Source: Thermoplasmata archaeon
Lineage (GTDB): Archaea; Thermoplasmatota; Thermoplasmata; Lutacidiplasmatales; UBA184
DNA length: 34,252 bases
Assembly (NCBI GenBank): GCA_030039715.1
Contig: JASHVA010000054.1
Span: forward strand, 1-34,252
Direction of reading: 5' to 3'
Shown here: positions 13,431 to 28,957 of the stretch, in pieces
Position numbering within the stretch: position 1 is the first letter of the stretch
Layout: the number at the start of each line of letters is the position of its first letter
Notes under the pieces: generated by a model
Seen by the model: the letters and a program-made list of their open reading frames with translations, nothing else
Told to the model about the DNA's origin: nothing
The model's database searches: none
Position numbers and translations under genes: made by a program

Positions 13431-13550
13431 GCAGGCGCGCCGGGCCGCCTCGATTTTCGGATTCTCCGAGGTCCTCCGTACCTCTGCCTCCAAAGGGTAG
13501 ATAGCTCGCACGACCGATGGGACCCCCTCCGCCCCGGGGGAGAGTCGGTC

Positions 13551-14972
13551 GTGTCGCGCGACACCGCGTATCGGATGCCCCAACCGGTGTTCGACGAGCC
13601 GGTGTTCAGCGAGAGCAAGCCGACGCCCGACCCGACCCGGTTCCGCGTGCCCCATCCATCCGACGCGGCGCTCTACCAGCGGATCCAGCAGCTGCTGTAC
13701 GAGGACGTGGTGACGTTCCCGCCGGCGCGGGGGACTCCCTCCGACCTGTACGCGCTCGCGACCGCCTGGGGGCCCCACGGGCCCGAGGTCGTCCGCTCGA
13801 TCGAGGAGGCCGGACGGATCGTCTTCCACACCGTCGGCGACATCGGGGCGTCCACGCAGGGAAAGTACCCCGGCGAGCTCCGCGTCTCCGACGTCCTCGC
13901 CCGCGAGGCGCAGCTCGCGGCACCGTCCGAGCGGCCCGCCTTCCTCTACCTGCTCGGAGACCTCGTCTACGACTTCGGCGAAGCCCGCTACTACTACGAC
14001 CAGTTCTACGAGCCGTACCGCAACTACCCGGCGCCGATCTTCGCGATCCCGGGGAACCACGACTCGTTCATCGTGCCGGGCTCGCCGGTCGCGCAGTGGC
14101 CGCTCGCCACGTTCCGGCGGAACTTCTGCTCGGAGGAGACGGTCGTCACGCCCGAGGCCGGCTCGCTCCACCGCACCGCGATGACGCAGCCCGGGGTCTA
14201 CTTCGCCCTGGACGCCCCGTACGTCCGGGTCGTCGGACTGTTCAGCAACGCTCTCGAGGACCCCGGGGTGATCTCGAGCGAGGGCGGGCGCTGGAAGGGG
14301 GTGCCGGACTACCAGCTCGACTTCCTCGCGGCCCAGCTGCGCCGGGCGAAGCGCGAGCGGTACGCCGGCGCGCTGCTCTTCGCGGTGCACCATCCGCCGT
14401 TCAACTACGCGCCGCCCGCCGGAGCACCCGGCGGGGGCGGCGCGCACGGGGGGAATCCCGCGATGCTCGCCCAGATCGATGTGATCTGCCGCGCCGAGGG
14501 GGTCTACCCGCACGCCTTCCTCGCCGGGCACGCGCACAACTACCAGCGGTACACGCGAACCGTGCAGTTCGGCGAAGGGACGTACGAGGTGCCGTTCCTC
14601 GTCTGCGGGGGCGGGGGACACGACGTCCAGTCGCTCGTCGCCGCCCGGCACGGGTCCGAGGCGAGCGAGCCGGCGAACGGCGCCGACGTCTCGTATCTCG
14701 ACGTCCATCCCGCCGTCGACGCGAAGGGTCTCCGGCTCGACCGACACGACGACCGGTCCTACGGTTTCCTGCGGGTCGTGGCCGACGCGGCCCGGATCTC
14801 GTTCGAGTTCACTCCCGTGATCGTCGGGGCCGAGCCGGGCGTGGCCGCCGACACCGTCACGATCGACATCGCCCGGCACGCCCTCGTACCGGCCCCTCCA
14901 CCGCCCCCGTCCGAGGACGTCGCGGACAAACCGAAGGGGCGCCGGGGCCCCCGGCGCGGTCGAGCGGAGTAG
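13551..14972 (+). CDS. Calcineurin-like metallophosphoesterase
   Basis: TVGDIGAS, LLGDLVYDFGEARYYYDQF, IPGNHDSF, AVHHPPFNY, AGHAHNYQRYTR motifs; GTG start. Confidence 0.93.
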   Translation: MSRDTAYRMPQPVFDEPVFSESKPTPDPTRFRVPHPSDAALYQRIQQLLYEDVVTFPPARGTPSDLYALATAWGPHGPEVVRSIEEAGRIVFHTVGDIGASTQGKYPGELRVSDVLAREAQLAAPSERPAFLYLLGDLVYDFGEARYYYDQFYEPYRNYPAPIFAIPGNHDSFIVPGSPVAQWPLATFRRNFCSEETVVTPEAGSLHRTAMTQPGVYFALDAPYVRVVGLFSNALEDPGVISSEGGRWKGVPDYQLDFLAAQLRRAKRERYAGALLFAVHHPPFNYAPPAGAPGGGGAHGGNPAMLAQIDVICRAEGVYPHAFLAGHAHNYQRYTRTVQFGEGTYEVPFLVCGGGGHDVQSLVAARHGSEASEPANGADVSYLDVHPAVDAKGLRLDRHDDRSYGFLRVVADAARISFEFTPVIVGAEPGVAADTVTIDIARHALVPAPPPPPSEDVADKPKGRRGPRRGRAE

Positions 14973-15033
14973 TCCGGCGCGGCGGCCCGGTGACGGCCGG
15001 AACCGTTTGATACCGCCCGGCGATCGGGCGGCG

Positions 15034-15519
15034 ATGCCCCCGTCGAAGGGTCGACGATTCCGGCTCGAGGCGACCTTCGACGCCCCGTCGGACTTTGCGT
15101 TCCGATGGTGCACGGACTATTCCCCCGAGGATCCGGAGATCGAGAAGGACGATTACGAGCGCCGCGTCCTCTCCCGTGGGAGCCGCCGCGTGCTCTACCA
15201 GGACCTGGGTCCTGAGGGAAAAGGGTGGTTCCTCAACACCCAGACCGTCACCCTCCGACCTCCCGGGAACTGGCACGCCGAGTCGGTCGGGACGTACCGC
15301 TCCTGGTCGATCGACTACTCGGTCCGCGCCCTCCCCGACGGTCGCACGCGATTCGCCTTCGACGGGATCCGGCGGATCACGCCGCTCGCCGGCCGCGGTC
15401 CCACCCGGGCCGAGGTCGAGGAGAACCTCCGTACGCTCTGGACGCGATTCGGCCGCGCGCTCGCCCGGGACTACCGCCGGACGTCGGGTGGGTCGGCGCG
15501 TCGGCAGCGCCCGGGATAG
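15034..15519 (+). CDS. SRPBCC (START/Bet v1-like) domain protein
   Basis: FRLEATFDAPSDFAFRWCTDYSPEDPE...; C-terminal helix RAEVEENLRTLWTRFGRALARDYRR. Confidence 0.7.
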   Translation: MPPSKGRRFRLEATFDAPSDFAFRWCTDYSPEDPEIEKDDYERRVLSRGSRRVLYQDLGPEGKGWFLNTQTVTLRPPGNWHAESVGTYRSWSIDYSVRALPDGRTRFAFDGIRRITPLAGRGPTRAEVEENLRTLWTRFGRALARDYRRTSGGSARRQRPG

Positions 15520-15520
15520 C

Positions 15521-16537
15521 TCACGCGTTCCGCCCCACGACCCGCCCCGGACCGGGCTCGTCGGGCACGGTTCGCTCCGCCATGCGAAGGAACTCCTCGA
15601 CGAGGCGAAGGTACGCCGCCCGTTCCTCCCAGAAACTGACGTGCGAGCTCTTCGGGAACACGTGGAAGAACGAGCCCGGGAGCGCCCGGTGGATCCGGGC
15701 CCCGACCGCCGGAGTGACCTCGTCGTACCGGCCGTGGAGGACGAGGGTGGGAACGCGGATGCGGCGGAGCTCCGAGGTGAAGTCGACGTCCTTGATGCGG
15801 CCGACGATCGTGAACTCGTTCGGGCCGTTCATCGTCTCGTAGACCGGTCGGCTCGTCCGGAGCAGCGTCGAGACGATCTCCTCGGGCCACGGAAGGAGCC
15901 GGCAGACGTGCCGCCGGTAGAACTCCATCGCGGCGGCCTCGTAGTCGGGATGGTGGAACTCCCCGCGCGCCGCGTACCGGGCGAGCGTCGCCCGGGTCCG
16001 CGCCGGTAGGAGTCCCACGAGCCGCCGCATCTCCCGCACGGCGAACGGAACGTCGGAGAGCCCGCCGGTCGAGTTCAGGCTCCAGAGGTGCCGGGAATGG
16101 CGGACGGCGTAGGCGAGGACGAGCAACCCGCCGTAGCTCGACCCCATGAGGTGGACGCGCTCGTTCCCGAGCGAGCGCCGGACGGCGTCGAGCACGCGGA
16201 GGTCGTGCTCGACGGTGAAGAGCCGGGGATCCGGAGGAAGGTCGGAGCGCCCGCAGCCGAGTGCATCGTAGAAGACGACCCGATATCCGCGGCGGGCGAG
16301 GTCAGCGAGCGGCAACAGGTAGTCGTGGGTCCCTCCCGGACCTCCGTGCACGCAGAGGAGCGTGCGGGCGCGGTTCCGCTCCCCGAACGTACGCACGTAG
16401 ATGCGGTAGCCGTCGACGTCCAGGAATCGCGATCGCGAACCGTCCGTCACGTCCGGGGGAGACCGGCCCCGGTAGATGAGCTCGCTCGAACCGGCCCGGG
16501 CGGTTGGTGTCGCGCCGAGATAAACCGGCCCGCGCAT
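15521..16537 (-). CDS. Alpha/beta hydrolase, proline iminopeptidase / tricorn-interacting factor F1-like
   Basis: TLLCVHGGPGGTHDYLLPL, FYDALGCGRSD, VHLMGSSYGGLLVLAYAV, VLHGRYDEVTP; start uncertain. Confidence 0.87.
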   Translation of the reverse strand: MRGPVYLGATPTARAGSSELIYRGRSPPDVTDGSRSRFLDVDGYRIYVRTFGERNRARTLLCVHGGPGGTHDYLLPLADLARRGYRVVFYDALGCGRSDLPPDPRLFTVEHDLRVLDAVRRSLGNERVHLMGSSYGGLLVLAYAVRHSRHLWSLNSTGGLSDVPFAVREMRRLVGLLPARTRATLARYAARGEFHHPDYEAAAMEFYRRHVCRLLPWPEEIVSTLLRTSRPVYETMNGPNEFTIVGRIKDVDFTSELRRIRVPTLVLHGRYDEVTPAVGARIHRALPGSFFHVFPKSSHVSFWEERAAYLRLVEEFLRMAERTVPDEPGPGRVVGRNA

Positions 16538-16565: not shown

Positions 16566-19289
16566 ATGGCCGAGGGAGATCTCCGTCCCTCGCAGACGAC
16601 CGGGGAGGCCGGAGGGGTCCCGGTCTTCGAGCGGCCCCCCGCGCTGGTCCAGTTCCTCGACGCGACCGAGGACGCGATCCGACTGCGCCTCGCGAAGCTT
16701 CGGCTGTTCGACCGGATCTTCCTGCTCGAGCGGGACTGGATGACCCGCATCACGATGCTGATGGTGATCTGCTCGATCCTCTGGGGCGCGGTCGGCGGCT
16801 TCGACGCGTTCGGCTTCCAGACGCAGGTCGTCGCCTACGCGACCCAGTCGGCGGTGCACCTCTCGAACGTCGAGATCTACTCCTCGGTCACGCTCCACGG
16901 TCTGCGCGAGCTCTTCGGATTCGCGCAGCAGCTCGAGATCGCCCTCCTGGGGCTCCTCCTCGTCAACGCCCTCGGGATCGTCCCCCGCCACAAGTGGACG
17001 CTCTACTCGGTCGTCGGCCTCCTCAACGCCTCGATGCTCTTCCTCCAGGGGCCCGTCTACCTCTTCCCGTTCAACGACAACTACTTCCCGGCCGTCGGCT
17101 GGTACTTTCTCTCGCCGCTCGGCGTCAACGGGCAGAGCTCGTACGTCGTGAGCCCGCTCTGGTTCCTCGGGTGGCTCGCGCTCTGCGCGGCGATGTTCCT
17201 GTGGATCGGCTGGGTCGTCTCCCACCTCCTGCGCTGGTATCGGGCGAACCGGGCGAAGGCCGCGGGTCGACCCTACCCGATCTTCCTCTGGTTCGTGATG
17301 GCGACCCTCGTCCTCATCCCGCTGACGTACGCCCCGCTCGTCGTCTCGACGGTCTGGGACGTCGGGACGGCCTACGCGGGCTGGCCGATCAACGCCCTCG
17401 CGAACCAGGTGATCTTCTGGATGTTCGGGCACGCGCTCGTCTACGTGCTCTTCCTCATCCCGATGATCGAGCTCTACTTCCTCATCCCCATCCTCGCTCG
17501 GCGACCGATCTACAGCTACCGCTTCGCGGTCGCCGCGGCGATCCTGTTCGTCCTCCTGACGCCGCTCCTCGGCATCCACCACCTGTTCCTCGCTCCGATC
17601 CCCGCCTGGGAGACGTGGGCGACGATGGCGCTCTCGTTCGCGATCGTGCTGCCGTCCGCGATCACGTTCTTCTCGGTCTGGATGACCGTGAAGGGGGTCC
17701 CCCGGGCCCAGTGGGAGTGGAACGCCGTCGCGCTGTTCGCGCTCCTGAGCTTCGGCGGCGCGATCTTCGGCGGTCTCACGGGACCGACCCTCGCGACCAT
17801 CCCCTGGGACGTCGACGTCCACAACTCGCTCTACGTGCTCGGCCACTTCCACGCGATCACGATCCTGTCGATCGTGGCGGGCGGCTTCGCGCTCGTCTAC
17901 GCGGTCTTCCCGATCCTGACGGGCCGGCAATGGTTCAGCGCCGCCCTCGCCCGGATCCACTTCGTCCTCACCGTGATCGGCGGCGCCACGATCGTCCTCG
18001 CCTTCGAGGAGCTGGGGAGCCTCGGCGTCCTCCGGCGCGAGTTCATCCTCCCCATCGTCCCCGCGATCACCTTCTACCAGCTGATCCTGCTCGGAGGGAT
18101 CGTCGTCATCCTCTCCGGGCAGCTCTTCTTCGTCGCGAACGGCGCGCTGACGGTGTTCCGCGGGGAGCTCTACAGCGCCGCGGGGCTCTCGTTCGACGAG
18201 GCGATCCGGCGCGCCGCGCAGTCGACGGCCCCGCGGAGCGCGCGTGTCCCGATCGGCGACATTCCGTTCTCGCGCCGGATGCCGCGGAGCCGGCGGGAGC
18301 GCGCGGAAGCCGGTTGGTCGATCACCGTGGTCGTCCTCCTCGTCTCCGTGCTCGTCCTCGCGACCCCCGGCGCGCTCTCCGTGAGCAACACGATCGACGG
18401 CACGGGCACGGACCCCGCCGTCTCGGAATACATCGGCCTCTACGGCCAGCAGTACTACTGGACCGCGACCGAGAAGGGCCTCGTGAACGGGACGTTCGAC
18501 AACGCGCTCGTCGTGGAGGCGGGGAGCTGGGTCCAGGTGAACCTCACCGCCACGGGGGCGACCCAATCGCTCCTGGTGCCGTTCCGCGATCAGGCGGTCG
18601 TCGACGTGCAGGCCGTTCCCGGCTCGGACTCCTACGCGGTCTTCCAGGCGCCGAGCGTCCCCGGTGTCTACGGAGCGCCGGACGGGGAGTACGACGGGCC
18701 GTGGTTCGGCCAGGATGTCTCCGCGCTCATCGTGCTTCCGGACCCGAACGCGACCGGGGCCTCCCTCGCCGCCTTCGCCTCGAGCGGGGGCGGCGGGGAC
18801 ATCTACAATCCCCCGGTCGAGCCCGTCGCGGGTCTCTCGCTCGTCGGGGACGGCGAGGGGCTCTTCAACAGCTCCGTGCCGGGTCCGACGATCTCGGCGA
18901 GCGCCCCGGCCGCGGGGGGACCGGTCGCCTTCGACTGGGAGGTTCCGCTCTCCAGCATCGACGCCGACAACTATCTCGTCAACGTCACGTCGAACAATCC
19001 GGACGCGCAGCAGCAGTACGTCGTCGCCCACAACTACACGCTCCCCTTCGACATCGGGGTCTACCGCATCGCGCCGGCCACCGGGCTCTCCGTGGTCACG
19101 CAGGGCGACCTCGTGATCGACCGGGAGACGACCGAGTCGGCGAACCTCACGCCGGGCGTCTACCTCTACGGGATCGTCGCGCCGGTCGACTATTCGTACA
19201 ACCCGGCGGGCGACTCGGGCGACGGCACGGGGATCCAGACCGGGTTCGTGATGGGCCTCTGGGGGGTACTGTGGGTGAGCACGGAGTGA
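16566..19289 (+). CDS. Heme-copper oxidase subunit I-II fusion, B-type-like catalytic subunit, cupredoxin-like subunit II lacking CuA ligands
   Basis: SSVTLHGLRELFGFAQQLE, MFGHALVYVLFLIPMIELYF, LGIHHLFLAPIP, DVDVHNSLYVLGHFHAITIL (all heme/CuB His present); C-terminal soluble part VPGVYGAPDGEYDGPWFGQDVSALIVL. Confidence 0.9.
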   Translation: MAEGDLRPSQTTGEAGGVPVFERPPALVQFLDATEDAIRLRLAKLRLFDRIFLLERDWMTRITMLMVICSILWGAVGGFDAFGFQTQVVAYATQSAVHLSNVEIYSSVTLHGLRELFGFAQQLEIALLGLLLVNALGIVPRHKWTLYSVVGLLNASMLFLQGPVYLFPFNDNYFPAVGWYFLSPLGVNGQSSYVVSPLWFLGWLALCAAMFLWIGWVVSHLLRWYRANRAKAAGRPYPIFLWFVMATLVLIPLTYAPLVVSTVWDVGTAYAGWPINALANQVIFWMFGHALVYVLFLIPMIELYFLIPILARRPIYSYRFAVAAAILFVLLTPLLGIHHLFLAPIPAWETWATMALSFAIVLPSAITFFSVWMTVKGVPRAQWEWNAVALFALLSFGGAIFGGLTGPTLATIPWDVDVHNSLYVLGHFHAITILSIVAGGFALVYAVFPILTGRQWFSAALARIHFVLTVIGGATIVLAFEELGSLGVLRREFILPIVPAITFYQLILLGGIVVILSGQLFFVANGALTVFRGELYSAAGLSFDEAIRRAAQSTAPRSARVPIGDIPFSRRMPRSRRERAEAGWSITVVVLLVSVLVLATPGALSVSNTIDGTGTDPAVSEYIGLYGQQYYWTATEKGLVNGTFDNALVVEAGSWVQVNLTATGATQSLLVPFRDQAVVDVQAVPGSDSYAVFQAPSVPGVYGAPDGEYDGPWFGQDVSALIVLPDPNATGASLAAFASSGGGGDIYNPPVEPVAGLSLVGDGEGLFNSSVPGPTISASAPAAGGPVAFDWEVPLSSIDADNYLVNVTSNNPDAQQQYVVAHNYTLPFDIGVYRIAPATGLSVVTQGDLVIDRETTESANLTPGVYLYGIVAPVDYSYNPAGDSGDGTGIQTGFVMGLWGVLWVSTE

Positions 19290-19516
19290 CCGACCCCGCG
19301 CCGACTCTGGCCCCCGCGAGTACGTCGCGCGGCCTCTCCCCGTTCACGGCCTTCGGCCTCGTGGCGATCGCGGCGGCCGTCGGGGCGGTCTACGAGATGT
19401 CGTACTACGCCGGCGACTCCGCGCTCTCCCCGGGAACGCTCGGGACCACCGTCGGGATCGTGATCGCGCTCGTCGGGTTCTTCGTGTGGGGCCTTCGCGC
19501 GCCCCCGAACGAGTGA
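19286..19516 (+). CDS. Small two-TM membrane protein, putative accessory subunit of the oxidase
   Basis: GTG start overlapping oxidase stop (gtga); TM FTAFGLVAIAAAVGAVYEMSYY and LGTTVGIVIALVGFFVWGL. Confidence 0.7.
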   Translation: MTDPAPTLAPASTSRGLSPFTAFGLVAIAAAVGAVYEMSYYAGDSALSPGTLGTTVGIVIALVGFFVWGLRAPPNE

Positions 19517-19613: not shown

Positions 19614-21617
19614 ATGCCCGTCGCACGCCGCCGGCTCGCCGCGATCATGTTCACGGACATGGTCGGCTACTCGGCCCTCGCGCAGCGGAACGAGGCGGCC
19701 GCGCTGAAGCTGCTCGACCGGCACAACCGGCTCCTCCGCCCGGTCTTCGCCCGGTTCGCGGGCCGCGAGGTGAAGACCGTCGGCGACGCGTTCCTCGTGG
19801 AGTTCGAGAGCGCGCTCGACGCGGTGCGCGCGGCGATCGAGGTCCAGCGCGAGCTCGACAAGTACGACCGCTCGGCCGCCGAGGGCCTCGAGATCCGGGT
19901 CCGGATCGGCGTGCACGTCGGCGACGTGGTGCAGCAGGGCGACGACGTCCTCGGGGACGCCGTCAACATCGCCTCGCGCATCCAGCCGCTCGCCTCCCCC
20001 GGCGGCATCTGCCTCACGCAGCAGGTCGTGGACCAGGTCCAGACGAAGATCGCGGAGCGGCTCGAGCGACTCCCGCCAACGCCGCTCAAGAATCTCCGGG
20101 GTCCCGTCGCGGTCTACCGGGTCGTCCTGCCGTGGGAAGCCCCCGCCCTCGGGTCCGGCGCGGCCACGGGCAGCGGCCGTCAGCTCGCGGTCCTTCCGCT
20201 CGCGAACATCAGTCCCGACCCGAACGACGGCTACTTCGCCGACGGCCTCACCGAGGAACTGATCTCCGTCCTCTCGCAGGTCGACGGGTTGAGCGTCATC
20301 GCCCGGACCTCGGTGATGCCGTACAAGGCCGCCCCGAAGTCGGTCCCGCAGATCGGCAGCGAGCTCGGCGTCGACTCCGTGCTCGAGGGGAGCGTCCGGA
20401 AGGCGGGCGACCGGATGCGGATCACGCTCCAGCTGATCGACGTGCCGACGCAGCGCCATGTCTGGGCGAGCAGCTACGACCGGGAGCTCCACGACGTCTT
20501 CGCGGTGCAGACCGACATCGCCGACCGGACCGCCGAGGCCCTCCGGCTCCGGCTCGGGACGACGGCCCCCGAGGGGGGGCGTCGCCGACCGACCGATAAC
20601 CTCGCGGCGTACGACCTCTATCTGCGGGGCCTGGTCGCGGCGCAGGAGCGGGACGACGGGTATCTCGAGACGGCGGTCCGCTGGTTCTCGGAAGCGACGA
20701 AGCTCGACCCGAAGTTCGCCGAAGCGTACGCCGCGTGGGCCACGACGTACGTGATCGCCGCGGGGGAGCACGTCGCCATGCGCGAGGCGATCCCGAAGGC
20801 GCGCCGGCTCGCCGCGCGCGCGCTCCGCCTCGACCCGAACTCCTCCGATGCCCACGCGGCGCTCGCGAACATCGCCTTCCAGTACGACCACCGCTGGCGG
20901 TACGCGGAGGCCGAGTTCCGCCGGGCGATCGAGCTGAATCCGAGCAACGTCACGGCGACGCAGTTCTTCGGGACGATGCTCTTCGCGCTCGGCCGGTTCG
21001 AGGAGGCGAAGGAGCTCACCCGTCGCGCGATCCGGCTGAATCCGGGCGGCGGCCCGAGCGCCCTCCTCGCGTGGATCGAGTACGAGAGCGGCGACCCGGC
21101 CGAGGCGATCCGGCAGGCGGAGGAGGGCCGGGACCGAGAACCGGGCGCGGCGCAGGGGCACTCGTACCTCGGCTTGCTCTACCTCGGGGCGGGCCGGCGA
21201 GGCGACGCGCGGCGGGAGGCGGACTTTCGGCTCGTGCGGCCGACCGAGGAGGAACGGTTCGACCACGCGCTCCTGAACGCGCTCGTCGGCCGGACGGCGG
21301 AGGCGCGCGCGATCGCCCGGCGGATCGAGCAGGGTACGGAGCCCGGGTACAACTCCGCGACGCATCTCGCGATGCTGTACTCCGCCCTCGGGGAGAAGCG
21401 TCGGGCGCTCTCCCTGCTCGAGAAGGACTACCGGGCGGGGGACCGGGTGCTCTGGCTCTGGCAGCGGGGGATCTACTTCGACCCGATCCGGGCCGATCCC
21501 CGATTCGTCCGCCTCCTGCATCGCTACGGCCTCCCGGCCGAGCCTCCGCGCCGACCGCTGCTCGCCGAACGGCCCCGTCGGCGGGTCCCGCGCCGTGGGA
21601 CCCACCGGAGGCGGTGA
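19614..21617 (+). CDS. Class III adenylate/guanylate cyclase fused to TolB-like domain and TPR repeats
   Basis: AAIMFTDMVGYSALAQRNE, VKTVGDAFLVEF, VLGDAVNIASRIQPLA cyclase motifs; VLPLANISPDPNDGYFADGLTEELISVLSQVDGLSVIARTS; TPR-like C-terminus. Confidence 0.93.
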   Translation: MPVARRRLAAIMFTDMVGYSALAQRNEAAALKLLDRHNRLLRPVFARFAGREVKTVGDAFLVEFESALDAVRAAIEVQRELDKYDRSAAEGLEIRVRIGVHVGDVVQQGDDVLGDAVNIASRIQPLASPGGICLTQQVVDQVQTKIAERLERLPPTPLKNLRGPVAVYRVVLPWEAPALGSGAATGSGRQLAVLPLANISPDPNDGYFADGLTEELISVLSQVDGLSVIARTSVMPYKAAPKSVPQIGSELGVDSVLEGSVRKAGDRMRITLQLIDVPTQRHVWASSYDRELHDVFAVQTDIADRTAEALRLRLGTTAPEGGRRRPTDNLAAYDLYLRGLVAAQERDDGYLETAVRWFSEATKLDPKFAEAYAAWATTYVIAAGEHVAMREAIPKARRLAARALRLDPNSSDAHAALANIAFQYDHRWRYAEAEFRRAIELNPSNVTATQFFGTMLFALGRFEEAKELTRRAIRLNPGGGPSALLAWIEYESGDPAEAIRQAEEGRDREPGAAQGHSYLGLLYLGAGRRGDARREADFRLVRPTEEERFDHALLNALVGRTAEARAIARRIEQGTEPGYNSATHLAMLYSALGEKRRALSLLEKDYRAGDRVLWLWQRGIYFDPIRADPRFVRLLHRYGLPAEPPRRPLLAERPRRRVPRRGTHRRR

Positions 21618-26881: not shown

Positions 26882-28957
26882 TCAACCCATCCGGACGCGA
26901 CTGAAGTCGAAGCCGCACTTGTGGCAGAACGCCGCGTCGGGAGCGGCGGCGGAACCGCAGTTCGGACAGAAGCGGGCCGCGGACGTCGGGGACGCCGCGG
27001 CCGGCGCCGGCGAGACCGTCGGGGCGGGCGAGGGAGCAGGAGCCGGAGCCGGCGCCGGAGCGATGGGCCGAGGCGGAGGCACCGGCGCATACGCCGGAGG
27101 CGGAGAGTAGGCCGCGGGCGGCGGACCGAAGTACAGGCCGCATCGAGGACACTGCGGGGCCTGGACCGGCATCATCGTGCCGCACCGGGGGCAGGGGCGG
27201 TAACCCGGGGGTGGCGTCGCGGGTCCTGCGGCGGGCCGTGCGGGCGCGGGGGCGGCAGCGACGGGGGCGTAGGCCGGGGCGGCCGACGGAGTCGGGGACG
27301 CCGGTGCGGTCGGCCCGGGAGCGTATCCCGGGGGCGGACTCGAAGCGGAGTACGGGGCGTAGCCGGGCGGCGCGGCGCCCGCCGGGCCGTACGTCGGAGG
27401 CGTCGCGGGCCGACCCGATCGACGCCGAGCGACGACCGAGACCACGACGACGACCGCGACGAGGACCACGAGGGCGACCAGCAGGAGGAGGATCGGAATC
27501 CCGGCGATCGAACCCGAGAGCGGGTTCGAGGTCGAGCTCGGCGGCGCGCTCGCGGTCCCCCCCGAGCACGGGCTCGACGGGGTCACGTTGAGCTCGCCTC
27601 CCGCCTTGAGCGTGCAGTGCCCGAGATAGGTCGTGGTGCCGCCCTCGGAGACGTTGACGAAGTACTGGCCGGGGTAGAGCGTGACCGTGGCGCCCCCGCC
27701 CTCGAACGGCGTCGGGGTGCCGTTGACGAGGAGCGCGCCGGTGCCGCTTCCCCCGGTGAAGTTGAGCACTCCGACGTCGGCGGAGGAGTACAGCTGGCGC
27801 AGGGTCGCGTAGCTGTCCGAGCCGGCGAGGAGATGGGCGGAGAGGTTGCCCGAGACCGTGTTGTACTCGAGGACGTCCTCGACGTCCTCCGACCCTTCCG
27901 CGGTCTCCGCACCGAAGTCGAACGCGTTGAGCGGCGACTCGAAGTTGTTGCCGTTCCAGGCGAGCAGCTGGAGCTTCGTGTTCGACTCCGCGTCGTAGGT
28001 CTGGGACCCTCCGCCCGGCCCCCCGAAGATCAGCTCGAGATCGTAGGGGATGTTCAACGGGTTCGTCTCGGTACCGGTGACGACGAAGCCGTAGAACGTG
28101 CTGGGATTCGCGGCCCAGGGGAAGTCCACCACGTCGTAGGCGTACTCTCCGCCGCCGTCGGCGTAGACGAACGCCACGCCGGGCTGTCCGCCCGACGTCT
28201 CGAACGCGTCCATTTCGAGGGTCACCGTGCCTCCCTCCGACCAGGAAACGTCCTCCCCGCCGGGTTGGGTGTCGAGCGAGTCGTCGGCGTACCAGTCCCC
28301 GTGCGCCCCGGTGTTGACTGTGCCGTTGCCCGAGATCGTGCTGTTGTACATCTCGGCGCCGGACGCCGACTCGTTCCAGACGTTGTCGATGAACTCGGCG
28401 ATGTCGTCCGAGCTGCTGTTGTACAGCAACACGTCCTGCGTCCAGTAGACGTACTGGACGCCGCCGGCCACGAAGACCAGCATCGCGTTCAGCTGGAGCC
28501 CGAAGTACGGGGAGAGGTCTCCGAGCGAGGAGTTCTCGACCTCCACGTTCGAGTCGAGGGTGACGACGCCGCGCACGGCCGGGGTGAAGTACGTGTAGCC
28601 CGTGCCACCGGCCGAGGTCACGCCGTAGTCGGCGATCCCCATCGGCGCCGGCTCGGTCGAGTAGTAGTCGAGCGGGTTCACCTGCTCCGGGCTCTTCGTC
28701 GCCCGCGGCTGGGCCAGCGAGGAGTGGACCATGTGGTTCGACGGTCCGACGCGGCTTCCCAGCGCGGAGAGGGCCGGGGGCGCATGGTAGGCGCCCGTCG
28801 TCGCGGAAGGACCGGTCGACGCACGGCGAGTGCTATCGCCGAGCCCGGCGGAGACGACGAGCACGACCGCGAGCGCGAGGCACAGGGCGACCGACACGAG
28901 CGATCGGTGCCGAAGGCCCCGCAGCCCGCCGATGACGAACCACCCGAACGGACCCAA
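26882..28957 (-). CDS. Thermopsin-family (peptidase A5) ectoprotein, membrane anchored, with Pro-rich cytosolic linker and two zinc ribbons
   Basis: NPLDYYSTEPAPMGIADYGVTSAGG, FGLQLNAMLVFVAGGVQYVYWTQDVLLYNSSSDDIAEFIDNVWN; TM IAGIPILLLLVALVVLVAVVVVVSVVARRR; CPRCGTMMPVQAPQCPRCG and FCPNCGSAAAPDAAFCHKCG. Apparent TTG start. Confidence 0.87.
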   Translation of the reverse strand: MGPFGWFVIGGLRGLRHRSLVSVALCLALAVVLVVSAGLGDSTRRASTGPSATTGAYHAPPALSALGSRVGPSNHMVHSSLAQPRATKSPEQVNPLDYYSTEPAPMGIADYGVTSAGGTGYTYFTPAVRGVVTLDSNVEVENSSLGDLSPYFGLQLNAMLVFVAGGVQYVYWTQDVLLYNSSSDDIAEFIDNVWNESASGAEMYNSTISGNGTVNTGAHGDWYADDSLDTQPGGEDVSWSEGGTVTLEMDAFETSGGQPGVAFVYADGGGEYAYDVVDFPWAANPSTFYGFVVTGTETNPLNIPYDLELIFGGPGGGSQTYDAESNTKLQLLAWNGNNFESPLNAFDFGAETAEGSEDVEDVLEYNTVSGNLSAHLLAGSDSYATLRQLYSSADVGVLNFTGGSGTGALLVNGTPTPFEGGGATVTLYPGQYFVNVSEGGTTTYLGHCTLKAGGELNVTPSSPCSGGTASAPPSSTSNPLSGSIAGIPILLLLVALVVLVAVVVVVSVVARRRSGRPATPPTYGPAGAAPPGYAPYSASSPPPGYAPGPTAPASPTPSAAPAYAPVAAAPAPARPAAGPATPPPGYRPCPRCGTMMPVQAPQCPRCGLYFGPPPAAYSPPPAYAPVPPPRPIAPAPAPAPAPSPAPTVSPAPAAASPTSAARFCPNCGSAAAPDAAFCHKCGFDFSRVRMG

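Follow-up and report, generated by a model that had tools for sequence, protein, structure and literature searches.

Organisation of the locus

The window, by which we mean the whole stretch of DNA that was analysed (34,252 nucleotides from a Thermoplasmata archaeon), carries a single open frame of 907 codons that joins subunit I of a heme-copper oxidase to a subunit II-like part, followed by a gene for a protein of 81 residues (Table 1). The fusion proposed in an earlier note on this DNA stands. A COX1 match at residues 61-511 (Pfam, E 2e-64) is followed by CoxB/SoxA-like sequence at about residues 576-712, where the NCBIfam matches are weak (E 9e-8 and 5e-5), and the CtaD and SoxB models of NCBIfam match the first part of the protein. 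The fused oxidase is real and conserved: an assembly artefact was ruled out as its source, since 26 genomes and 20 named contigs carry the fusion.

Structure prediction agrees with this architecture. AlphaFold2, run on 24 orthologues with a modest mean pLDDT of 61, gives 12 membrane helices at residues 58-532, a thirteenth at 574-607, and then beta structure. Foldseek matches of the model are to subunit I of aa3, bo3 and ba3 enzymes, and the thirteenth helix aligns in BLASTP with the N-terminal helix of a separate cox2 of the same genome. With 12 helices and one anchor, the predicted topology would place the C-terminal part outside the membrane, like an ordinary subunit II.

Table 1. Features of the fused oxidase locus; positions are those of the window, residues those of the fused protein.
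Feature	Position	Strand	Basis
Fused heme-copper oxidase subunit I-II gene, 907 aa	16566..19289	+	Open frame; COX1; CoxB/SoxA-like; orthologues
Subunit I part, residues 58-532, 12 predicted membrane helices	16737..18161	+	AlphaFold2; Foldseek
H111, low-spin heme ligand, helix II	16896..16898	+	Alignment to reference oxidases
H289 (CuB ligand) to Y293 (active-site Tyr); L291 at the place of A-type Glu278	17430..17444	+	Alignment
Y304, B-type K-channel residue (A types: Ser)	17475..17477	+	Alignment; definition in PMC3084760
H338 and H339, CuB ligands	17577..17582	+	Alignment
S364 to T367, B-type K-channel residues (A types: Thr/Ser and Lys)	17655..17666	+	Alignment
H427 (high-spin heme) and H429 (low-spin heme)	17844..17852	+	Alignment
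Membrane anchor of the subunit II part, one helix, residues 574-607	18285..18386	+	AlphaFold2; alignment to own cox2
Outer cupredoxin domain 1, homologous to the CuA domain but lacking copper ligands, residues ~620-725	18423..18740	+	Foldseek; BLASTP
Q667 (Gln of TQSLLVP), place of the upstream CuA His; varies among orthologues	18564..18566	+	Alignment
DGEYDGPWFGQD, equivalent of the CuA loop, residues 706-717, near-invariant	18681..18716	+	Gap-free alignment to CTEFCGEFHGTM; conservation
Second outer, putatively cupredoxin-like domain without copper ligands, residues ~751-905	18816..19280	+	AlphaFold2; Foldseek; no Cys
81-aa gene, two hydrophobic helices, likely small subunit	19271..19516	+	Alignment, hydropathy; neighbourhood

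The 81-residue frame begins within the 3' end of the fused gene and is too short for the list of open reading frames of at least 100 residues. It lies directly after the fused orthologue in all 21 loci checked, and it has no convincing family match. Subunit IIa of archaeal B-type oxidases has 53-78 residues, one helix, the motif P-X1-3-G-T/A and a conserved Gly and Trp (PMC3128077); the 81-residue protein has two hydrophobic stretches, and neither the motif nor the Trp is conserved across its orthologues. It is likely a small subunit of the fused oxidase complex and may fill the role of subunit IIa, which does not imply homology to it.

Two other + strand frames upstream of the oxidase (13517-15010 and 15095-16009) belong to no family and have an odd composition; we read them as shadow frames. 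Downstream, a gene at 19614-21617 (+) encodes an adenylate/guanylate cyclase domain and then TPR repeats, with homologues near the oxidase in the loci L037 and L040 only, and another at 26882-28957 (-) encodes a thermopsin-like acid protease with C-terminal zinc ribbons.

A complete catalytic site with B-type channel residues

The fused protein has the hallmarks of the heme-copper superfamily, namely the 12-helix core, six His ligands and the Tyr of helix VI. Alignment to reference oxidases puts the six His anticipated in the earlier note (111, 289, 338, 339, 427 and 429) at ligand positions, and the active-site Tyr at 293. Reduction of nitric oxide or another substrate instead of O2 might be envisaged for so divergent a clade, several B-like members of the superfamily being NO reductases. 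Nevertheless, all CuB ligands are kept, and every sampled orthologue has Y293, the residue missing from NO reductases, whereas Thermus plasmid references have Gln at the Tyr position and Lys at a ligand His. We therefore give another substrate only a slim chance. The two plasmid-encoded proteins in question (L101, L102) are annotated as ba3-type or cbb3-type subunit I; their sequences suggest that, despite this annotation, they are probably not O2 reductases.

B-type oxidases are defined by Thr, Ser and Tyr in place of Lys354, Thr351 and Ser291 and by the lack of a D-channel (PMC3084760). The fused protein has T367, S364 and Y304 where A types have Lys354, Thr351 (Thr or Ser) and Ser291, and in alignments to annotated references the place of the A-type Glu278 is taken by L, I or V throughout the clade. 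The B-type look previously ascribed to subunit I is thus borne out at the K-channel. Of ten orthologues sampled, nine carry the fingerprint, and in L054 the Ser and the Thr have changed places.

Outer domains devoid of copper ligands

The first outer domain matches oxidase subunit II in Foldseek, and BLASTP aligns the fused subunit II part with the intact cox2 of the same genome (E 7e-12). This alignment is gap-free across the loop that had been equated by eye with the CuA loop: the C, E, C, H and M of CTEFCGEFHGTM pair with D706, E708, D710, F714 and D717. Both Cys are thus replaced by Asp, His by Phe and Met by Asp, with the central Glu kept, and the loop had been located correctly to the base. 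The upstream CuA His pairs with Q667, also at the exact position proposed; the Gln itself, however, is not a fixed substitution, as orthologues have Q, G, R, E, S or D there. All the ligands that characterise cytochrome c oxidases (two Cys, two His and Met) are therefore replaced, and the fused protein shares with heme-copper quinol oxidases a subunit II without CuA. In the outer 300 residues Cys is absent, and His and Met occur once each (H822 and M896), a composition that leaves no possible CuA or type-1 copper centre.

The earlier description of the fused unit was right about a CuA-less cupredoxin part but missed both the small downstream gene and a second domain. In the AlphaFold2 model, residues ~751-905 form a second beta sandwich. 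The whole outer region matches two- and three-domain multicopper oxidases and nitrite reductases in Foldseek, with low whole-length TM-scores (~0.2-0.3), as expected if the orientation of the domains differs. On inspection, the end of the second domain (PGVYLYG...MGLWGVLWV) resembles a cupredoxin C-terminus without its ligands. It is on the sequential Foldseek match and this ending that we call the predicted domain cupredoxin-like.

The acidic loop is near-invariant among the homologues. P705, D706, E708, G711, P712, W713, F714, G715 and D717 are identical in 23 sequences, in which position 710 is D or N, 709 Y or F, and 707 G or S. Mean identity to the window sequence is 0.96 in the loop and ~0.70 in its domain, and for the outer domains four close pairs give a dN/dS of ~0.06-0.13, two more distant comparisons with the window sequence ~0.33-0.40. 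Judging from these 23 sequences, the conservation of the loop is more than chance. Three interpretations had been offered for the site: a relic, a quinol-facing surface or a different metal site. That the site is decaying in a gene losing its function would be in keeping with the disappearance of all CuA ligands, the patchy presence of the gene (26 of 103 genomes) and a copy in G019 that stops matching after ~350 codons. The near-invariant loop, the low dN/dS of the close pairs and the fact that nearly all full-length copies are open make decay extremely improbable.

A different metal site is less improbable than a relic. In CuA oxidases, the equivalent Glu also binds a Mg/Mn ion next to CuA, and H419 of subunit I, at the Mg/Mn-site position, is kept in the fused protein. 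Together with the invariance of D706, E708 and D717, this might indicate that D706, E708, D710 (or N) and D717 bind Ca, Mg, Mn or Fe at the interface of the two subunit parts, as a structural or a new redox site; a parallel is provided by qNOR, in which Ca bridges the donor and catalytic parts (PMC10256718). However, position 710 can be D or N, the surroundings contain neither His nor Cys, and in acidic habitats Asp and Glu in a turn may be purely structural. The AlphaFold2 models have pLDDT values below 50 at the loop, where the modelled geometry is too uncertain. On balance, metal binding by the loop appears improbable.

Distribution and phylogenetic position

Fused orthologues occur in 26 of the 103 genomes of the archaeal family, with one short fragment in addition, and their bearers include Thermoplasmata MAGs and Ca. 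Lutacidiplasma silvani. A canonical cox1 is also present in eight of the nine fused-gene genomes with a completeness of 90% or more and a contamination of 5% or less. No intermediate forms of the fused oxidase were found among 390 genomes of the phylum. The frame of one orthologue, L032 (G019), matches over ~350 codons only, owing to a frameshift, a broken gene or an assembly error.

In trees whose reference set was without SoxB and DoxB, the fused clade is monophyletic, with a stem of ~2.1 substitutions per site, and falls outside the A types. Attraction to the B types is weak (support 79/64, with long branches) and a grouping with the C types is not rejected (p 0.37). The clade thus forms a separate, deep lineage in these trees, apparently of a depth comparable to that of the named A, B and C types. 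It might even constitute a separate oxygen-reductase family, not a B subfamily, in which the invariant Asp/Glu loop is a new metal site, perhaps fed in acid soils by Fe(II) or by a donor not yet recognised; we regard this combination as very unlikely. Membership in the SoxABCD group was rejected, as the scores reach 97.5 of 700 bits for SoxB and 23 of 110 bits for SoxA, and a search for SoxB at E 1e-60 found none in 293 genomes of the phylum.

Three oxidases from other Thermoplasmata families (L105, L106, L107) have the B-type K-channel fingerprint and an intact CuA site (CVEYCGEYHY.M), and branch beside the A types. Kinship of the fused clade with them is disfavoured by the AU test (p 0.02, subject to long-branch effects). 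Similar enzymes of Cuniculiplasma have been called A1 (PMC5155288), and the border between A and B types in Thermoplasmatota looks unsettled.

The canonical respiratory chain of the same genome

The earlier note had regarded a second cox2 with intact CuA ligands in an adjacent operon as an argument against its reading. Such a gene does exist in the genome (HSFNIP...CTEFCGEFHGTM), but on another contig, C119, in a cluster with an A-type cox1 that carries the Glu and Lys of A-type channels, a SoxC-like cytochrome b, a SoxL2-like Rieske protein, TatC and a protein weakly matching SoxE/sulfocyanin and rusticyanin. As this cox2 is clustered with its own cox1, it is unlikely to pair with the fused subunit I and supply it with CuA. 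The canonical oxidase is probably fed by the cytochrome b/Rieske proteins and the blue-copper protein. For these archaea one complex IV locus has been described, whose coxA belongs to the A1 subfamily (PMC9287336).

Cytochrome c or sulfocyanin on the one hand and quinone biosynthesis on the other had been suggested as a way to tell possible donors apart. This genome (71% complete) yielded no cytochrome c, which is also reported to be absent from the phylum (PMC9287336), nor any sulfocyanin by TIGR03094. But in the 103 genomes of the family MqnA and MqnD have no match either, and MenD is never above its cut-off. NuoH-like complex I subunits, present in 96 of these 103 genomes, together with the cytochrome b/Rieske proteins imply a quinone pool.

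Proposed electron donor

We consider it reasonably probable that the fused enzyme is a quinol-dependent O2 reductase, made of a fused subunit I, an anchor and two copper-free cupredoxin domains. The fused chain and the 81-residue protein would form a membrane oxygen reductase with B-type proton-channel features. As the outer part has no metal relay, electrons would pass from membrane quinol directly to the low-spin heme, like in other CuA-less oxidases; the heme/CuB site would reduce O2 with protons delivered by the K-channel. The copper-free outer domains would now have a structural, capping role and might help to form the donor site. The enzyme would run beside the canonical A-type oxidase.

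The analogies on which this proposal rests come from several directions, and they make the quinol-facing surface the best fit among the three earlier interpretations. Members of the superfamily without CuA are quinol oxidases (PMC11942997). Replacement of the CuA His by Phe is also found in CyoA of Bradyrhizobium and in a Nostoc plasmid oxidase that resembles the cyanobacterial alternative oxidase (described in PMC6616624); the Nostoc protein has Asp at the first CuA Cys as well, as in the fused protein. Most likely, CuA was lost independently in the fused clade. Several observations speak against quinol. No known menaquinone route was found in the family, and the strict conservation of the acidic loop exceeds what a simple cap would require. 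The quinol site of bo3 comprises Arg71, Asp75, His98 and Gln101, and in the fused protein the aligned residues are V76, D80, E103 and S106, so that the Asp alone is kept, although these residues define bo3 and not all quinol oxidases.

Alternatively, a blue-copper protein like rusticyanin or sulfocyanin might dock on the outer domains and feed the low-spin heme directly. A candidate is encoded in the canonical cluster, and the missing quinone pathway would fit such a donor. However, its gene sits with the canonical oxidase and not with the fused gene, and the Trp of QWYW through which cytochrome c electrons enter is replaced by Tyr (QQYYW). As no relay metal is left in the outer part, the heme would be distant from the docking surface, which further argues against this route. 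We deem a blue-copper donor unlikely and retain quinol as the preferred one.

Significance and comparison with known systems

Our literature search, with most subscription papers outside its scope, found no description of the fused protein, and a survey of archaeal fusions reports a I-III fusion alone for complex IV (PMC11237513). What appears new is a deeply branching CuA-less oxygen reductase, probably quinol-dependent, fused to two cupredoxin domains without copper sites. In the evolution of respiration, CuA has been lost repeatedly together with a change of electron donor; in these uncultured soil archaea this would have happened in a single polypeptide, which has a strictly conserved loop at the former CuA position and stands on a deep branch. 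As the published respiratory description of these archaea comprises A1 oxidases alone (PMC9287336), the fused enzyme gives them a further terminal oxidase, which may have an electron route of its own. A new role for the copper-free outer domain thereby becomes a testable question.

The canonical oxidase of the same genome has homologous subunits I and II, but in separate genes, with an intact CuA and the A-type channel Glu and Lys, and its subunit I is ~30% identical to that of the fused protein. The B-type quinol oxidases of Sulfolobales (SoxABCD and the Dox enzyme of Acidianus) also have a subunit II without CuA. They are archaeal too, and the fused subunits show similarity to the models of SoxB (97 bits) and SoxA (23 bits), although far under the curated cut-offs of 700 and 110 bits. 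Unlike the fused enzyme, they are encoded by separate genes and have further subunits, and they lack its extra cupredoxin domain.

The ba3 enzymes of Thermus and haloarchaea share with the fused enzyme the K-channel Tyr/Ser/Thr, the absence of Glu278, the VHN..GHFH motif, a single subunit II anchor and, probably, a small extra subunit. However, they have an intact CuA and separate subunits, and the grouping of the fused clade with B types is the weak one reported above. In bo3 CyoA and the cyanobacterial alternative oxidase, a copper-free CuA cupredoxin is likewise retained, with the CuA His replaced by Phe. These have an A-type catalytic subunit and separate genes; CyoA has Ser where the fused protein has Asp/Glu, and the quinol site of bo3 is kept only partly in the latter. 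In qNOR, a former electron-input domain, once a heme c domain, is fused to the catalytic subunit, has lost its redox centre, and quinol is used (PMC10256718), as we infer for the fused enzyme. Although qNOR reduces NO, has no CuB and carries the altered domain on the N-terminal side, it is by analogy the closest precedent in kind.
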